Of a stretch of DNA of 64,000 bases, positions 2,532 through 47,612 are shown one piece after another; position 1 is the stretch's first letter; every line of letters starts with the position of its first letter. Below the pieces are notes generated by a model that saw only the letters and a program-made list of their open reading frames with translations, made no database searches and was not told the origin of the DNA. Both the position numbers and the translations under genes were made by a program. This stretch comes from Alphaproteobacteria bacterium (lineage in GTDB: Bacteria; Pseudomonadota; Alphaproteobacteria; Sphingomonadales; Emcibacteraceae): NCBI GenBank assembly GCA_030428615.1, contig JAUIDN010000010.1, forward strand, positions 1-64,000, given 5' to 3'.

Positions 2532-4079
2532 ATGTCAGAATTCACGGATGAAATGTATGCGGGGTCGCAGAAACGCAATTTTATGGGTCACCCCGTCGGA
2601 CTTTCAGTTCTATTCCTCACCGAAATGTGGGAGCGTTTTTCTTACTACGGTATGCGGACAATCCTTATCCTTTATCTGACGAAATACCATCTTTTTGGTG
2701 TCGAAAAAGCGAGCATGATTTACGGCGCCTACGCCGGTCTTGTTTATATGATGCCGATTATCGGCGGCTATATGGCAGACCGGTATCTTGGCAGCCGAAA
2801 GGCTGTGACCTATGGTGCTATCCTGCTGGTGCTTGGTCACGGCCTTATGGCGTTTCACGGGCCAGCCGCTTATATGAGCGGTGACATTGTCGTCCGTGAT
2901 GAGTTTTACATTAATATTTTCTTCCTGGCGCTTGCGCTTATTATTGGCGGCGTTGGCTTCTTAAAAGCCAATATTTCATCGGTAGTTGGTGCCCTTTATG
3001 GTCCGAACGACCCCCGCCGTGACGGTGGTTTTTCAATATTCTATATGGGCATTAACCTTGGATCGTTTGTTTCCATGCTACTCGTTGGTTATGTCGGCGA
3101 AGTGCACGGCTGGAATTACGGCTTCTCAATCGCCGGTATCGGGATGTTGTTTGGCTTGCTTATTTTCCTTTGGGGTCAAAGATTTCTTGGCGGCCGCGCA
3201 GAACCGCCCGCTCCGGAAGTGCTTAAAGAAAAATCCCCCATTGGGTTAAACAAGGAAAATACAATTTACCTGTTCGGTTTGGGTCTTGTCGGGGTTAACT
3301 GGATTATGATGCAATATGACCAAATGGTTATCCAGCTGGTCGGCGTATCCGGTATATTGATGATCGGGCTGGTTCTATTTTATGCCTTTACGAAATGTGA
3401 GAAGGTGGACCGCGATAGATTATTCGTTGCATTGTTCCTTATCGCCGTTCAATCCGTTTTCTGGGCGCTGTTTGAACAACAGGCCGCCAGCCTCACGCTT
3501 CTTGCGGACCAGCAATTTGATCTCAGCTTTTTCGGGATCGGAATATTGGCTTCTCAGGTGCAGATGATGAACGCGTTGTTTATCATCGTTTTCGCACCGG
3601 TTATGGCGTGGCTTTGGGTAGCACTTGCGAGACGAAAATGGGAACCGTCAACACCGGCTAAATTTGGATATTCACTTCTTTTGATCGGTGCAGGATACAT
3701 TGTTTTCGCATGGGGTATGGGGCTGGATGATAGCACATCGAAAAGTTTCATGTGGCTGGTCTTCATTTATTTTATGCTCACTCTGGCGGAGCTTTTCCTA
3801 AGCCCTGTGGGCCTTTCAATGGTCACAAAATTAAGTGTGCCGAAAATTGTCGGCATGATGATGGGCACATGGTTTTTGTTTACCGCTCTTGGGAATAATG
3901 TTGCCGGGTGGATCAGTTCATTAATGGGAAGCAACGAAGAAGGGGTGGCAAGCGGCACCCTTGATATGGCCGCAACAATGGATCTCTATACACTGATCGG
4001 ATTGGGTAGCGCGGGAGTGGGTATATTTATTCTGATCCTTACACCACTGCTGAAAAAAGGAATGCACGGGGTTCACTAA
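2532..4079 (+). CDS. POT/PTR-family proton-dependent oligopeptide transporter (copy 1)
   Basis: A 515-residue polytopic membrane protein of the proton-coupled oligopeptide transporter family (MFS fold), which imports di- and tripeptides with protons across the inner membrane. The family signature E31-M-W-E34-R35-F-S-Y-Y-G is at residues 31-40, and the second PTR2 signature (FYMGINLGSF) is near residue 173. The conserved FEQQAASLTLLADQQF segment sits in the C-terminal half. GGGAGAGAG precedes the ATG. It is followed 15 nt later by a close paralog, and the pair is probably co-transcribed, diverging from an M14 carboxypeptidase. The length is typical of bacterial DtpT/DtpA-like members. Confidence 0.92.
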   Translation: MSEFTDEMYAGSQKRNFMGHPVGLSVLFLTEMWERFSYYGMRTILILYLTKYHLFGVEKASMIYGAYAGLVYMMPIIGGYMADRYLGSRKAVTYGAILLVLGHGLMAFHGPAAYMSGDIVVRDEFYINIFFLALALIIGGVGFLKANISSVVGALYGPNDPRRDGGFSIFYMGINLGSFVSMLLVGYVGEVHGWNYGFSIAGIGMLFGLLIFLWGQRFLGGRAEPPAPEVLKEKSPIGLNKENTIYLFGLGLVGVNWIMMQYDQMVIQLVGVSGILMIGLVLFYAFTKCEKVDRDRLFVALFLIAVQSVFWALFEQQAASLTLLADQQFDLSFFGIGILASQVQMMNALFIIVFAPVMAWLWVALARRKWEPSTPAKFGYSLLLIGAGYIVFAWGMGLDDSTSKSFMWLVFIYFMLTLAELFLSPVGLSMVTKLSVPKIVGMMMGTWFLFTALGNNVAGWISSLMGSNEEGVASGTLDMAATMDLYTLIGLGSAGVGIFILILTPLLKKGMHGVH

Positions 4080-4094
4080 ACGTCAGGGATTAAT

Positions 4095-5642
4095 ATGTCA
4101 GAAACGACAGAAGATTTGTACCAAGGGTCACAAAAAAGAACATTTCTAGGCCATCCGGTCGGAATTTACATTTGTTTTCTTACAGAAATGTGGGAACGCT
4201 TTTCATATTATGGTATGCGGGCGCTGCTTATTCTTTATCTGACCAAATATCATCTTTTCGGCGCAGAACGGGCAAGCCTTATATATGGGGCATTCGTTGG
4301 GCTTGTTTATATGATGCCCATTTTCGGCGGATTTCTGTCCGATCGGTATTTGGGCAGCCGCAAGGCGGTCACATATGGGGCGATCCTTCTTGTGCTTGGT
4401 CATGGTCTGATGGCATTTCACGGTGAAGCGGCATACATCGTCGGCGATACGGTTGTCCGTGATGACGCGTCAATCAATATATTTTTCCTTGCGCTTGCAC
4501 TGATCATTACCGGTGTAGGGTTTTTAAAAGCGAATATTACAACGGTTGTTGGCGCTCTATATGGCCCCAAAGATCCTCGACGTGACAGTGGGTTTACCAT
4601 TTTTTATCTGGGTCTTAATCTCGGTGCTTTCATCTCCATGCTGCTTGTCGGCTATGTTGGGGAGACATACGGCTGGAACTACGGGTTTTCCATCGCCGGG
4701 ATCGGGATGTTCTTCGGCCTTCTGGTTTTTTTATGGGGACAGAAACTACTTGATGGTCATGCCGAGCCGAGAAAACCGGAACGCCTAAAAGAGCATTTTT
4801 TTATGGGAATTAACAAAGAACAAGCCATTTATATTGGCGGCATTGGCCTTGTCCTTGTTAGCTGGATGCTGATGCAATACCAACAGCTTGTCGGCGGATT
4901 ACTGGGTGCATCCGGATTCATTATGATCGCGGCGATACTGGTATATGGATTCCTCAAATGCACAAAAATAGAACGCGAAAGGCTTATGGTTGCATGCTTT
5001 CTGATCGTGTTCCAATCTGTCTTCTATGCATTATTTGAACAACAGGCCGCCAGCCTCACGCTACTGGCGGACCAACAATTCGACAAAACCATTTTCGGGA
5101 TAGAGCTAAAAGCATCACAGGTTCAGACAATGAATACAGCTTTCGTCTGTTTACTCGCACCCATTATGGCGTGGATTTGGATTTGGCTTTCAAAACGTAA
5201 AATTGAGCCATCAACACCCTCAAAATTTGGCCTGGCCATGATTATCATTGGCGCGGGATATATCATTTTTGCATGGGGTATGGGGCTTGATAACAGTACT
5301 TCGAAAAACTTTCTCTGGCTTGTGTTTATTTATTTCTCTCTGTCATGGGCCGAACTTTTCATCATTCCAGTTGGGCTTTCGATGATTACGAAAATGAGCG
5401 CTGCGAGAATTGTTGGTATGATGATGGGGACATGGTTCCTGTTTATGGCCGTTGGAAATTACATGGCCGGCTGGATCAGCTCGCTGTTGGGCGCGGGCGG
5501 CCACGGCGTGTCGGGTGCTCAGCTTGATATGGCGGCAACAATGGATGTTTATACGACAATCGGCATGTTCAGCATGGCAGCTGGCGCATTTATTTTTGTG
5601 ATGACACCTTTGCTTAAAAAAGGAATGCACGGCATAAAATAA
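4095..5642 (+). CDS. POT/PTR-family proton-dependent oligopeptide transporter (copy 2)
   Basis: This is a second 515-residue peptide transporter, clearly a tandem duplicate of the preceding gene: same length, same ExxERFSYYG motif at 31-40, same QQAASLTLLADQQF segment and same LLKKGMHG C-terminus. The central loops differ most (for example after WGQKLLDGH), which fits divergence in substrate range rather than a very recent duplication. The gap to copy 1 is only 15 nt, with AGGGATTA as a weak ribosome site. It converges on the nitroreductase gene with 4 nt between stops. A short CCGTT/AACGG hairpin at 5644-5657 overlaps that junction. Confidence 0.92.
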   Translation: MSETTEDLYQGSQKRTFLGHPVGIYICFLTEMWERFSYYGMRALLILYLTKYHLFGAERASLIYGAFVGLVYMMPIFGGFLSDRYLGSRKAVTYGAILLVLGHGLMAFHGEAAYIVGDTVVRDDASINIFFLALALIITGVGFLKANITTVVGALYGPKDPRRDSGFTIFYLGLNLGAFISMLLVGYVGETYGWNYGFSIAGIGMFFGLLVFLWGQKLLDGHAEPRKPERLKEHFFMGINKEQAIYIGGIGLVLVSWMLMQYQQLVGGLLGASGFIMIAAILVYGFLKCTKIERERLMVACFLIVFQSVFYALFEQQAASLTLLADQQFDKTIFGIELKASQVQTMNTAFVCLLAPIMAWIWIWLSKRKIEPSTPSKFGLAMIIIGAGYIIFAWGMGLDNSTSKNFLWLVFIYFSLSWAELFIIPVGLSMITKMSAARIVGMMMGTWFLFMAVGNYMAGWISSLLGAGGHGVSGAQLDMAATMDVYTTIGMFSMAAGAFIFVMTPLLKKGMHGIK

Positions 5643-44293: not shown

Positions 44294-45457
44294 TTATACG
44301 GCATGACCCTTGGCCAGATACTCCTTTGATTGCATTTCAATTAAACGGGAAACCGTTCTTTGAAATTCAAAATGGCCGTGGCCTTCCGCATATAACGCCT
44401 CAGGGGGGACTTCCGCACAACATAAAAATTTAACATTATTTTCGTAGAGAGCGTCAATAAAGGTAACAAATCTCTTGGCTTCATTGCGCTTTTCAGGACC
44501 AAGTTTCGGAATACCCACCATAATGATTGTATGATATTTCCATGCAAGCGCCAAATAATCAGCGGCCCCCAATGCGGCGCCACAGATTTTTTTAAAACTC
44601 ACAACCGCTACACCACGAGATGCAACCGGTACTTTTAATATTCTGCCTTGAATTGTTAATTCTTCGGGACCAACCTCACTCCTGTCATTGACCGTGTGGT
44701 CAGTTAAGCGCCAAAATGCATCGGAAAGAGCATCCGTTGCTTTGTCTCCAAGTGGATAATGATAAACTTCTACGCCTTTCATTCGTTCGAGTCGATAGTC
44801 AGTGGGGCCATCAAGCGCCTCGACATCCATTTTTTCCTTGATGAGTTCAATGGTTGGTAAAAACAAGCCTCTGTTCAAACCGTCTTTATAAAGATCGTCC
44901 GGAATCCTGTTTGACGTAAGCACCAACATCACACCCTTATCAAAAAGAGCACCAAACAACCTGCCAAGAATCATCGCATCCGTAACATCCGTTACCTGAA
45001 ATTCATCGAAACAGAGAAGTTTGCAGTTTGAAGAAATTTGAGCCGCTAGCGGCGAAATAGGATCATCCTCTGACGTACCCAATTTTTTTTGCCTGTCTTC
45101 CTTGCTCATATAACGCCAGTCATGCATTTCCCTATGCAACTCAAGCATAAATGCGTGAAAATGCACTCTTCGTTTATTTTTAATTGGCACAAGATTATAA
45201 AACAAATCCATCAGCATGGATTTTCCGCGGCCCACATCGCCATATATATAAATTCCCTTTGATGTTTTCTGCCTATTGCGTGATCGAAAAAGACTTTGTA
45301 AAAAACCACCCTGATTTCGGAGGTCCGTTTCGATTAGCTCTGCATATAAAATTTGCAATTTATCAACGATATGTGATTGAATAACATCTTCTTTAAGTTC
45401 CCCGCGACTTACCATTTCTCGGTAACGACTTACTGGATCGGCTGAAGTTTCACTCAT
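44294..45457 (-). CDS. zapE: Cell-division ATPase ZapE (AFG1-like)
   Basis: A 387-residue AFG1/ZapE-family ATPase. Walker A is GDVGRGKSMLMDLFY, Walker B is LLCFDEFQVTDV, and the arginine-containing sensor region follows (VLTSNRIPDDLYKDGLNR). In bacteria it associates with FtsZ and the division apparatus; the mitochondrial relative is LACE1/Afg1. Location directly upstream of mdh on the same strand is a common alphaproteobacterial arrangement. It diverges from the small-paralog genes. Confidence 0.94.
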   Translation of the reverse strand: MSETSADPVSRYREMVSRGELKEDVIQSHIVDKLQILYAELIETDLRNQGGFLQSLFRSRNRQKTSKGIYIYGDVGRGKSMLMDLFYNLVPIKNKRRVHFHAFMLELHREMHDWRYMSKEDRQKKLGTSEDDPISPLAAQISSNCKLLCFDEFQVTDVTDAMILGRLFGALFDKGVMLVLTSNRIPDDLYKDGLNRGLFLPTIELIKEKMDVEALDGPTDYRLERMKGVEVYHYPLGDKATDALSDAFWRLTDHTVNDRSEVGPEELTIQGRILKVPVASRGVAVVSFKKICGAALGAADYLALAWKYHTIIMVGIPKLGPEKRNEAKRFVTFIDALYENNVKFLCCAEVPPEALYAEGHGHFEFQRTVSRLIEMQSKEYLAKGHAV

Positions 45458-45510
45458 TATAATCGCTCTAAAAAAAGAGACCCCTCGTTATACTTTTAAT
45501 AACTTATATG

Positions 45511-45539
45511 GTTTATGGATTTAAATATTATCCATAAAC
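45511..45539. promoter_or_regulatory. 10-bp inverted repeat before the small-paralog genes
   Basis: GTTTATGGAT and ATCCATAAAC (45511-45520, 45530-45539) form a perfect 10-bp stem with a 9-nt loop, ending 20 nt before the first small-paralog start and lying between it and the divergent zapE gene. It may be an operator, or a leader hairpin close to the AAGGGA ribosome site. Confidence 0.4.
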
Positions 45540-45559
45540 GACTTTAAAAGGGATAAAAA

Positions 45560-45772
45560 ATGAAAAAAACTTTTGAAATATCCGTTTATAACACCGAGGT
45601 GCGCGACGCTGTTCAAAACAAGCGCAATCACCCGAGTTTTGAAGCTACGTGGGCGGATACTCATCTTATCCTTATTCAGGCATATACCGCTGACGAAGCA
45701 TTGGCCATTTGTCGGCGCAAGCACCCTGAAAAAATGGGTTTTGTTTTAGGTGACGTTACAGAAGCACTTTAA
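45560..45772 (+). CDS. Small unknown protein, paralog family member 1
   Basis: A 70-residue acidic/basic mixed protein, unrecognised. It shares a clear pattern with the next two genes: [YF]N-x-EVR near residues 10-15, a His-Pro-type turn, a WAD/WAE box, a hydrophobic strand (LILIQA here), an alanine-rich helix (ADEALAICRRK) and HPEKMGF-V. The alternation suggests a compact alpha/beta domain without membrane segment or signal peptide. AAGGGA precedes the ATG. It is the shortest copy, with little beyond the common core. Confidence 0.8.
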   Translation: MKKTFEISVYNTEVRDAVQNKRNHPSFEATWADTHLILIQAYTADEALAICRRKHPEKMGFVLGDVTEAL

Positions 45773-45815
45773 GGCACCGGCATAGAATAAAAATTTATAA
45801 GTAGACTATCTTGTT

Positions 45816-46088
45816 ATGAGCACAGACGTAATTGCAGAACACAGAAATACCAATATATATGAAGTCGTCATGTATAATACTGAGGTACGCAAATATGTTG
45901 AATTTGACGAAAAGCACCCAAGGTATGATGATGGCTGGGCTGATTCACGATATATCGAATTGCCTGCCCTCAATATCAGAAGCGTGATAAAGAAAATCCG
46001 CGCCAGATATCCCCGGAAACGCGGTTTTAAAATCACCGCAATTACCCAAATTCCGGAATTTACTTACGATAAAAGAGAAAAATTTTAA
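45816..46088 (+). CDS. Small unknown protein, paralog family member 2
   Basis: A 90-residue member of the three-gene paralog set, with a longer N-terminus (about 14 residues) and a C-terminal basic tail (TYDKREKF). The core aligns with copy 1 and 3: YNTEVRKYV, KHPRYDDGWADSRYIEL, then an Ile/Arg-rich helix (IRSVIKKIRARYPRKRGF). It is markedly more basic than copy 3, so the copies have diverged in surface charge. No strong Shine-Dalgarno is visible, and the gap to copy 1 is 43 nt. Function unknown. Confidence 0.78.
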   Translation: MSTDVIAEHRNTNIYEVVMYNTEVRKYVEFDEKHPRYDDGWADSRYIELPALNIRSVIKKIRARYPRKRGFKITAITQIPEFTYDKREKF

Positions 46089-46204
46089 AATTCTACTTTT
46101 CAATGTTTTTACTAAAATTTTAGACTTTCTTTTACAGTTTTAACATCTTTCCAGAATAGCATATGGCCATATTTAACGATTCATTAGAATTAATAGAGTA
46201 AGAG

Positions 46205-46210
46205 TATAAT
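46205..46210 (+). promoter_or_regulatory. Possible -10 element before small paralog 3
   Basis: A perfect TATAAT lies 19 nt before the start of the third paralog within a 141-bp AT-rich gap. The matching -35 element is weak, so this is only a candidate for a separate promoter. Confidence 0.3.
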
Positions 46211-46229
46211 AGTAAAGCGAGAGTATAAA

Positions 46230-46454
46230 ATGTCAGATGATCTACATATTTTTGAATTTTCCATATTTAACAAGGAAGTAAGAGACCTTGTGCAAATGGG
46301 TGATTCCCATAATCAGCTTGACGATAGCTGGGCTGAACAACGTTACATTCAAATTGAAGCCCCAACCGAAGACGCCGCTATGGCTGAAGCACGGCGCCGC
46401 TTTCCGGAGAAAAAGGGGTTTGTCTTCACAAGCGTCATAAGATTTCTGGATTAA
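46230..46454 (+). CDS. Small unknown protein, paralog family member 3
   Basis: A 74-residue acidic member of the paralog set, with FNKEVRDLVQMG, LDDSWAEQRYIQIEAPTEDAAMAEARRRFPEKKGFVFTSV. It is probably closest to the ancestral form, since the D-x-WA-[DE]-xRYI box and PEKKGFV match each of the other copies in part. Its stop codon overlaps the convergent L,D-transpeptidase gene by 4 nt. No domain is recognised and no function can be assigned. Confidence 0.8.
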   Translation: MSDDLHIFEFSIFNKEVRDLVQMGDSHNQLDDSWAEQRYIQIEAPTEDAAMAEARRRFPEKKGFVFTSVIRFLD

Positions 46455-46984
46455 TTCATAACAATCTCAAGGGACGTTTCCGGGGTAAGTTCTGGCAGAA
46501 TTTCGAGCAGGTCTTCTTTATTAAGGGATACACATCCTTCCGTACCCTTATAGTTCTCGTCGTCTAGGTCTTTGGCAACATGCATAAATATAGCGCTTCC
46601 TTTTCCAGGTTCCACTGGTGCATCATTATATCCCAGAACAACCAGAACATCATAAAGGTCATCCTCACGCCAAAGCGCTTCCGCGCTCGCGTGATAGGGC
46701 AGCATAACCGATTTGTTATATGCCGGGTCTTTCGGGTCGTCACACCAACCGTCTTCTTTAAGAAGCGCCATAAGCGGAACTTTGCTGTATATGGGTTTTC
46801 TTAACTTGTCGTAGCGGTAATAAACACTTCGCAGGTTAAATCGCCCTACAGGACTTTTGTTATCTCCTTCCTGCTTATCGCTGGCAATGCCGCCTTTGCC
46901 TAACGCACAAGGGTACTTCTTGCTGCCAAGCTTTAATATGCCGCGGGAAGGGTTTTCGGAGATCGGTGTGACAAGAAGTTCCAT
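46451..46984 (-). CDS. L,D-transpeptidase-fold (YkuD) protein
   Basis: A 177-residue protein that is essentially one YkuD domain. The active-site signature is visible as the His in IFMHVAKD and the nucleophilic Cys in GTEGCVSL, and the Lys/Tyr-rich middle (YYRYDKLRKPIYSKVP, YHASAEALWREDD) is typical of the YkuD-like group of short proteins. L,D-transpeptidases form 3-3 peptidoglycan cross-links or attach proteins to the wall. No signal peptide is visible, which is odd for that role. It starts 17 nt after pspC on the same strand, with AGGTAAGG upstream, so it may belong to the psp operon. Confidence 0.85.
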   Translation of the reverse strand: MELLVTPISENPSRGILKLGSKKYPCALGKGGIASDKQEGDNKSPVGRFNLRSVYYRYDKLRKPIYSKVPLMALLKEDGWCDDPKDPAYNKSVMLPYHASAEALWREDDLYDVLVVLGYNDAPVEPGKGSAIFMHVAKDLDDENYKGTEGCVSLNKEDLLEILPELTPETSLEIVMN

Positions 46985-47001
46985 AATCGCCTTACCTCTT
47001 T

Positions 47002-47397
47002 TTACTTATCCAGGTCGTTTATTTCACGATGAAGGTTATATTGCGGTGAAGTCACATGCGCTTCTGCCGCGCGCAAACGCCGCTCAATGTCGCGAAATTT
47101 ATATCTTATATCGCGAACCGTGTTTGAAGGTTCCGTTCTAACGGATTTCCAGAATTCGCTTTCTTTCGGATTCTCATACAAATCTTTCGGTTTGGGGTCG
47201 AGAAATAGAGCAAGTAGGATATAACCAATGATAACAAAGGGAACACCGATAAGGCAAAAGATAACCGCTGCGATACGTATTACCATCGGATCAATTCCAA
47301 AATAATCCCCGATCCCGGCACACACCCCTGAAATTTTAGCGTTCTTTTTATCAAGATAGAGCTTCTTATAGCTCGGAGTTTTATGGTCTCTATACAT
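47002..47397 (-). CDS. pspC: Phage shock protein C
   Basis: A 131-residue inner-membrane protein with the PspC domain near the N-terminus (DKKNAKISGVCAGIGDYFGIDPMVIRI), a transmembrane segment (IAAVIFCLIGVPFVIIGYILLALFL) and a long cytoplasmic/coiled C-terminus (about 75-131). PspB and PspC sense membrane stress and sequester PspA away from PspF. Its start overlaps the pspB stop by one base. Confidence 0.92.
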   Translation of the reverse strand: MYRDHKTPSYKKLYLDKKNAKISGVCAGIGDYFGIDPMVIRIAAVIFCLIGVPFVIIGYILLALFLDPKPKDLYENPKESEFWKSVRTEPSNTVRDIRYKFRDIERRLRAAEAHVTSPQYNLHREINDLDK

Positions 47398-47612
47398 TAT
47401 TTTTTCCTCCAGTCCGGAGATTCCACGTCAAGAATTCTTTCTATATTGTTTAGCCGGGCGTCAATGCGTTCAGCACTTTCCCACAGCTCCCCCAAAATAT
47501 TTTCATCTTCGTTTGAAATGGTTTTTGTCGACTTCCAGCGGGTTGAATAATGAAGAAATATCCAAAGCGGTGCGACGATCACCATAAATAATATTGCTAC
47601 TGTTTCTGCCAT
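47397..47612 (-). CDS. pspB: Phage shock protein B
   Basis: A 71-residue protein with an N-terminal transmembrane helix (AETVAILFMVIVAPLWIFLHYSTRW) and a short charged helix containing SAERIDARLNNIERILD, typical of PspB. It acts with PspC as membrane sensor of the phage-shock system. It lies 45 nt after pspA and overlaps pspC by one base. Confidence 0.9.
   Translation of the reverse strand: MAETVAILFMVIVAPLWIFLHYSTRWKSTKTISNEDENILGELWESAERIDARLNNIERILDVESPDWRKK

Follow-up and report, generated by a model that had tools for sequence, protein, structure and literature searches.

The question raised by this locus, which lies between zapE and the psp operon of an Emcibacteraceae genome (assembly GCA_030428615.1, contig JAUIDN010000010.1), is what three small tandem proteins are and what they might do. 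The window analysed here is the whole stretch of 64,000 nucleotides at positions 1 to 64,000 of that contig. All three open reading frames lie on the plus strand: paralogue A (45560..45772) encodes 70 residues and is near-neutral, paralogue B (45816..46088) encodes 90 residues with a basic domain and a C-terminal tail, and paralogue C (46230..46454) encodes 74 residues and is acidic. An earlier note on this DNA had described proteins of these lengths with a common core, and the frames are present at these positions and can be aligned, with 17 invariant columns. When C was searched against the whole genome at E values up to 1, A (E 9.4e-13, 45%) and B (E 6.9e-12, 34%) were recovered and no matches beyond C itself, A and B were found; these matches are far beyond chance, and the three proteins are related. 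Elsewhere in the window, at 2532-5642, two adjacent genes for 515-residue membrane transporters also look, by eye, like tandem paralogues.

The common element is a domain of about 70 residues with the signature N-x-x-V-R...H...W-A...P-x-x-x-G-F. It had been called unrecognised, and this description held in the libraries searched, since the best E values of A, B and C were 0.19 in Pfam, 0.042 in NCBIfam and 0.016 in PHROGs, none of them convincing. No characterised family emerged when the 47 members of a wider alignment were compared one by one with Pfam (the best 25 of 27 families being examined) and NCBIfam; the matches were scattered and none was better than E 0.001. Among these, DUF1381 (E 0.0012, 3 of 47 members), EndoU (E 0.0013, 4 of 47) and gltX of NCBIfam (E 0.0015, 1 of 47) were rejected. 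Two families of likewise small proteins showed marginal profile similarity, each to 2 of the 47 members: the DpnD/PcfM-like family (PF14207; best E 0.016), which matched none of A, B and C at E values up to 10, and the Icd-like phage proteins (NF033153; best E 0.042), at a score of 13.9 bits against a cut-off of 25. Sequence searches of solved structures returned best E values of 0.48 with C and 0.15 with the 47-row profile, and the best PADLOC match of six proteins (E 0.0098) lay within coiled coil. No relatives were found in phages with C as the only query, in viral contigs with A1 and L126, or in plasmids with L126 or L096, and one weak plasmid relative was obtained with L110. In the literature, no paper was recognised as treating the domain family.

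The family extends beyond this genome. With a profile of A, B and C, members were detected in 28 of the 32 genomes of the window's family, and with wider profiles in 41 of 196 genomes at the level of the order and 33 of 385 sampled genomes at the level of the class; a draw across the phylum gave 6 positive genomes of 398, all of them Alphaproteobacteria, and the window's genome is included in the counts at all four levels. A scan of public genomes with a three-row alignment, reduced to two narrow peptide patterns, yielded 15 confirmed loci, the titles of which name Emcibacteraceae, Kordiimonadaceae, Rhodospirillaceae, Rhodospirillales, Alphaproteobacteria or Proteobacteria. Within these searches, for which genomes were sampled up to the level of the phylum, the domain family was found only in alphaproteobacteria. 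Two very long frames (L159, 1472 residues; L083, 397 residues) were dismissed, by eye, as read-through upstream of a normal start, and one open frame at a contig end (L027, 1501-2039), in which a family member and a GTPase-like stretch are fused, was set aside as a probable assembly chimera.

A second question is how the array arose and whether its members are maintained. In a tree of 120 domains over 74 columns, in which many deep forks are unresolved, A falls in a clade of 16 members across the window's family (support 99/88) and is the only orthogroup with members from outside the genus, and the clades of B (10 members, support 99/99) and C (6 members, support 100/98) are restricted to the genus. 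Because A, B and C occupy separate supported clades, each common to sister genomes, the array is not a recent amplification; the tandem, diverged paralogues of the earlier note stand, whereas an amplification recent in this genome does not. Of the 13 genomes of the genus searched, ten carry a complete array, one has only A, at the edge of a contig, and no member was detected in the other two, which are 99% and 53% complete. Both A and B are present in all ten complete arrays, separated by 43 nt or less in each, and with frames called from their first start codon the two overlap in three arrays, by 1 nt in two of these and by 32 nt in the third; C is present in six and was not found in the other four. 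The spacing of the genes is the basis on which an A-B-C operon may be proposed.

The median pN/pS among orthologues was 0.25 for A (10 sequences; maximum 0.50), 0.18 for B (10 sequences; maximum 0.28) and 0.35 for C (6 sequences; maximum 0.45), values that are rough because pS is near saturation (mean 0.77-0.81); mean pN was lowest in B and highest in C. Judged from these sequence comparisons, A, B and C appear to be three old orthogroups under purifying selection. The strong difference in charge that had been claimed for the three proteins was borne out and is kept across orthologues: the net charge of the domain is +2 to +5 in 10 of 10 B proteins, 0 to -4 in 10 of 10 A proteins and -1 to -6 in 6 of 6 C proteins. 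Over whole frames there were two exceptions, a B of -1 (L036) and an A of +4 (L037), and in the latter the true start may lie downstream of the first start codon.

Structure prediction of the monomer, which had been suggested as a check, gave a confident compact fold. The AlphaFold2 model of C, built from a 75-row alignment (pLDDT 93.2, pTM 0.75), consists of a strand (residues 6-14), a helix (15-22), a short helix (32-35), a strand (38-44), a helix (47-57) and a strand (64-72), and the signature residues N14, V17, R18, H27 and W34 fall within the stretch that runs from the end of strand 1 to the short helix ahead of strand 2. In the 105 rows without a membrane anchor, N is conserved in 99%, V in 99%, R in 90%, H in 95%, W in 100%, P in 95% and G in 100%; in the 15 full-domain rows of the membrane-anchored relatives described below, the corresponding values are 100, 100, 40, 100, 100, 100 and 87%. 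The near-invariance of N, H and W in both groups would be expected of a ligand-binding or enzymatic microprotein that uses an N-R-H-W site, yet the arginine is kept in only 40% of the anchored rows, the domain is very small, and no convincing enzyme family was matched in the libraries searched, so that we give this explanation a low probability.

Comparison of the model with known folds bears on another explanation, namely that the proteins are regulators that bind RNA or RNA polymerase, as eL20 binds rRNA and T7 Gp2 binds the beta' jaw of the polymerase. In two Foldseek libraries, no match had an E value below 0.001. The top solved structures included ribosomal chains taken as eL20, T7 Gp2 and, first by E value but superposing poorly, phycobilisome chains, and the second library returned many tiny phage proteins at a probability near 1, one of which is named RNA polymerase inhibitor. 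In VIA, the best matches were ribosomal large-subunit chains (Z 6.5-7.2, rmsd 2.6-3.9 over 57-62 residues), which we take to be eL20/L18a; by the tool's own note, a Z under 8 may reflect a common arrangement only and 7.2 is ordinary background, and the absence of a fold from its list carries no evidential weight. The ribosomal protein eL20, which occurs in archaea and eukaryotes, has domains of about 65 residues. Its identity to the family model was 6-15%, its Z lies inside the stated background, its Pfam profile did not match A, B or C at E values up to 10 with the HMMER filters on, and a ribosomal part would fit poorly with membrane-anchored members.

The chain taken as T7 Gp2 from its entry title and length (4lk0_M) reached a Foldseek probability of 0.97, a TM score of 0.78 by target and an rmsd of 2.3, but its E value was 0.51. 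Gp2 is likewise a small alpha/beta protein of comparable size; judged from secondary structure, the domain family differs in an extra helix and a loop, with the signature residues, between strands 1 and 2. Two invariant arginines of Gp2, R56 and R58 in the strand-3 interface, contact the beta' jaw (PMC3778932), and a conserved counterpart of this pair is missing from strand 3 of the family (residues 64-72), where no arginine exceeds 60% in the 105 rows and the commonest residue at position 71 is E (61%). We therefore regard a regulator of this kind as unlikely. From the secondary structure of the model, we infer that a small sheet-plus-helix core is probably shared with the eL20 and Gp2 chains and that the segment linking strands 1 and 2, which carries the signature residues, is longer in the family. 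The proteins represent a new domain family with a small fold that appears to be a common one.

The setting of the array was also considered. The identities of zapE, pspC, pspB, pspA and pspF were confirmed by profile. The gene zapE (44294..45457, minus strand), which encodes an AFG1-like ATPase from outside the family, is the divergent neighbour of A, and a YkuD-type L,D-transpeptidase-like gene (46451..46984, minus strand) is convergent with the array and separates it from pspC, its last four bases (46451-46454) overlapping the end of C. In two loci that lack C (L036 and L038), the YkuD gene is overlapped by the end of B instead. The earlier note had placed the array between zapE and psp, and the two sides of this setting differ in range. 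Of the 28 positive genomes in the window's family, 22 have a copy adjacent to zapE, as do 4 of 5 loci in a second family of the order, whereas the psp side was seen only in the genus and at one distant locus.

Beyond zapE, loci with long flanks carry mdh and suc genes, except L133, where the contig ends, and L038, which reaches mdh only; sdhA is present in 5 of the 8 long-flank zapE loci outside the genus, and in the second family sdh lies on the far side in three loci and mdh beyond zapE in three. Four genomes of another order carry the gene downstream of sucC-sucD; mdh was also seen in three of them, and in the fourth the distance is about 3.9 kb. Two members beside sucD (L101, 7682-8005; L105, 7705-8040) appear, by eye, to be extended at the N terminus in a similar way, by about 35 residues. 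This recurrent neighbourhood might suggest an accessory or assembly factor for a cluster of TCA and respiratory genes (sdh, zapE, mdh, suc), possibly acting with ZapE, the mitochondrial relatives of which (Afg1) interact with the insertase Oxa1 (PMC7314023). Against it, in the window's own family six of the 28 genomes with members carry only another subfamily, away from zapE, and an ancestral gene order alone would look alike without functional coupling. Members also occur at quite other loci: in two further families of the window's order, the gene follows recX at 4 of 5 loci (L141, L144, L145, L150); three of these RecX assignments have profile support, at NCBIfam scores below the curated cut-offs, and the fourth was made by eye; two Rhodospirillales loci have, by eye, gyrA/coaD-like neighbours, and others adjoin unrelated genes. 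We regard such a factor as rather improbable.

On the psp side, the transpeptidase gene followed by pspCBA and pspF adjoins all ten complete arrays of the genus, and a psp operon also lies near the distant locus L116. These observations, together with the existence of membrane-anchored relatives, could point to a component of the Psp envelope-stress response. On the other hand, BLAST with the window proteins detected no psp genes near the eight long-flank zapE loci of other genera or near the remaining distant loci, so the psp linkage is essentially genus-level and not conserved across lineages. The array is directed toward psp yet meets the transpeptidase gene end to end, and a survey of Psp partners, in the part accessible to us, names no such protein (PMC11237479). 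In addition, when 10 anchored-type proteins were searched at E values up to 0.1, PspB (PF06667) was not among the Pfam families listed, which for one of these proteins were the best 25 of 30. We consider membership in the Psp response very unlikely. Overall, no single gene context explains the domain family, and because the context differs between lineages (zapE, sucD, recX and others), no single partner is indicated.

The divergent intergenic region between zapE and A contains a block, GTTAT-N7-ATAAC followed by TTATATGG (45487..45511), which is a candidate shared promoter or operator and may serve zapE, the array or both. When ten loci of the genus were aligned, nine had an exact right arm, six an exact left arm and five the exact full pattern, and part of this conservation may be compositional because the region is AT-rich; in the genome there is one exact match, and one more with two mismatches equals the single match of a backward control. 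Immediately after this better-kept block, a perfect 10-bp inverted repeat with a 9-bp spacer (GTTTATGGAT/ATCCATAAAC, 45511-45539) ends 20 bases before the start of A; as an operator it was rejected, being kept in none of nine sister loci, although the L037 stretch ends short there. Promoter-like sites at the array were not above shuffles, terminator-like sites were not found there, and Rfam returned nothing over 44800-47400.

Third, a membrane-anchored form of the domain was observed in several other alphaproteobacterial families. In 27 of the 139 family ORFs, a strongly hydrophobic segment lies 69-104 residues ahead of the domain, and the spacer between this transmembrane helix and the domain is, by eye, mostly coiled coil. 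Lysine and arginine are more numerous after the hydrophobic segment than before it in 25 of the 27 and equal in two, a pattern from which the domain is predicted to be cytoplasmic. Fifteen of the anchored ORFs contain the full domain and 12 match its second (C-terminal) half only, weakly, each of the latter adjoining another anchored protein of the same kind. The model of one full-domain anchored protein, based on six sequences (pLDDT 82, pTM 0.38), shows one long helix and then the strand and helix order of the soluble form. In Indioceanicola profundi (Azospirillaceae), an overlapping anchored pair with profile E values of 1.2e-11 and 3.1e-5 is annotated as "hypothetical protein" in both cases. 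Among solved structures, the anchored profile matched mostly coiled coils; a further match, to yibL (2lf0), had an E value of 0.0005 over residues 36-113, mostly coiled coil. A match of one anchored protein to F0 subunit B (3.9e-5), far under the cut-off and in coiled coil, was discarded.

Tandem sets recur in the family. At least two members were present at 28 of 105 loci, on one strand in all 28, and a single member at 77, counts that are not unbiased frequencies because loci were chosen by search rank and that include some repeats of one region; nine of the 28 (L110-L114, L116, L160, L161, L166) include one or more members that match only half of the domain. One such locus (L160, 5040-7475) has four genes for transmembrane coiled-coil proteins, including two with matches to the second half of the domain. 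At L160, L161 and L166, all of one genus, such runs adjoin ribosomal genes (rpsI by profile in L161, the others by eye).

Herein, we propose that A, B and C belong to an unnamed alphaproteobacterial domain family, the members of which are most likely small partner-binding adaptors, a function that we put forward tentatively. An adaptor fits best because the domain is tiny and without an enzyme signature, occurs in tandem sets, differs in charge between paralogues and has a stalked membrane form; the conservation of the family, the fold model and the recurrence of tandems on one strand also favour it. First, the conserved N-V-R-H-W face would bind an element common to all members. Second, the variable charged surface might set the choice of partner; the specialised partners suggested in the earlier note would be in keeping with the difference in charge. 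Third, the members would act as hetero-oligomers or as alternative subunits, A with B at least; partnering between neighbours would not be required everywhere, since 77 of the 105 loci have a single member. Here the adaptor would be cytosolic, and in other lineages it would act at the inner membrane. Among the points against this proposal, besides the varied gene context and the loci with one member, are the 12 anchored ORFs, of 27, in which a weak match covers the second half of the domain only, and the possibility that polar residues of such near-invariance belong to a catalytic or ligand site instead. A broader and more doubtful version is that the family is a scaffold domain, in which one fold is deployed both as diffusing, charge-complementary sets such as A, B and C and as membrane-anchored coiled-coil sets, with hetero-oligomers that would organise a process common to many alphaproteobacteria.

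Whichever role applies, the domain is conserved, has a confident fold model and occurs in many alphaproteobacterial families, yet it is without a clear match in curated libraries. The soluble and anchored forms and the repeated tandem sets provide a concrete, testable handle on its function, and if a role emerged, a sizeable set of hypothetical proteins would be annotated at once.
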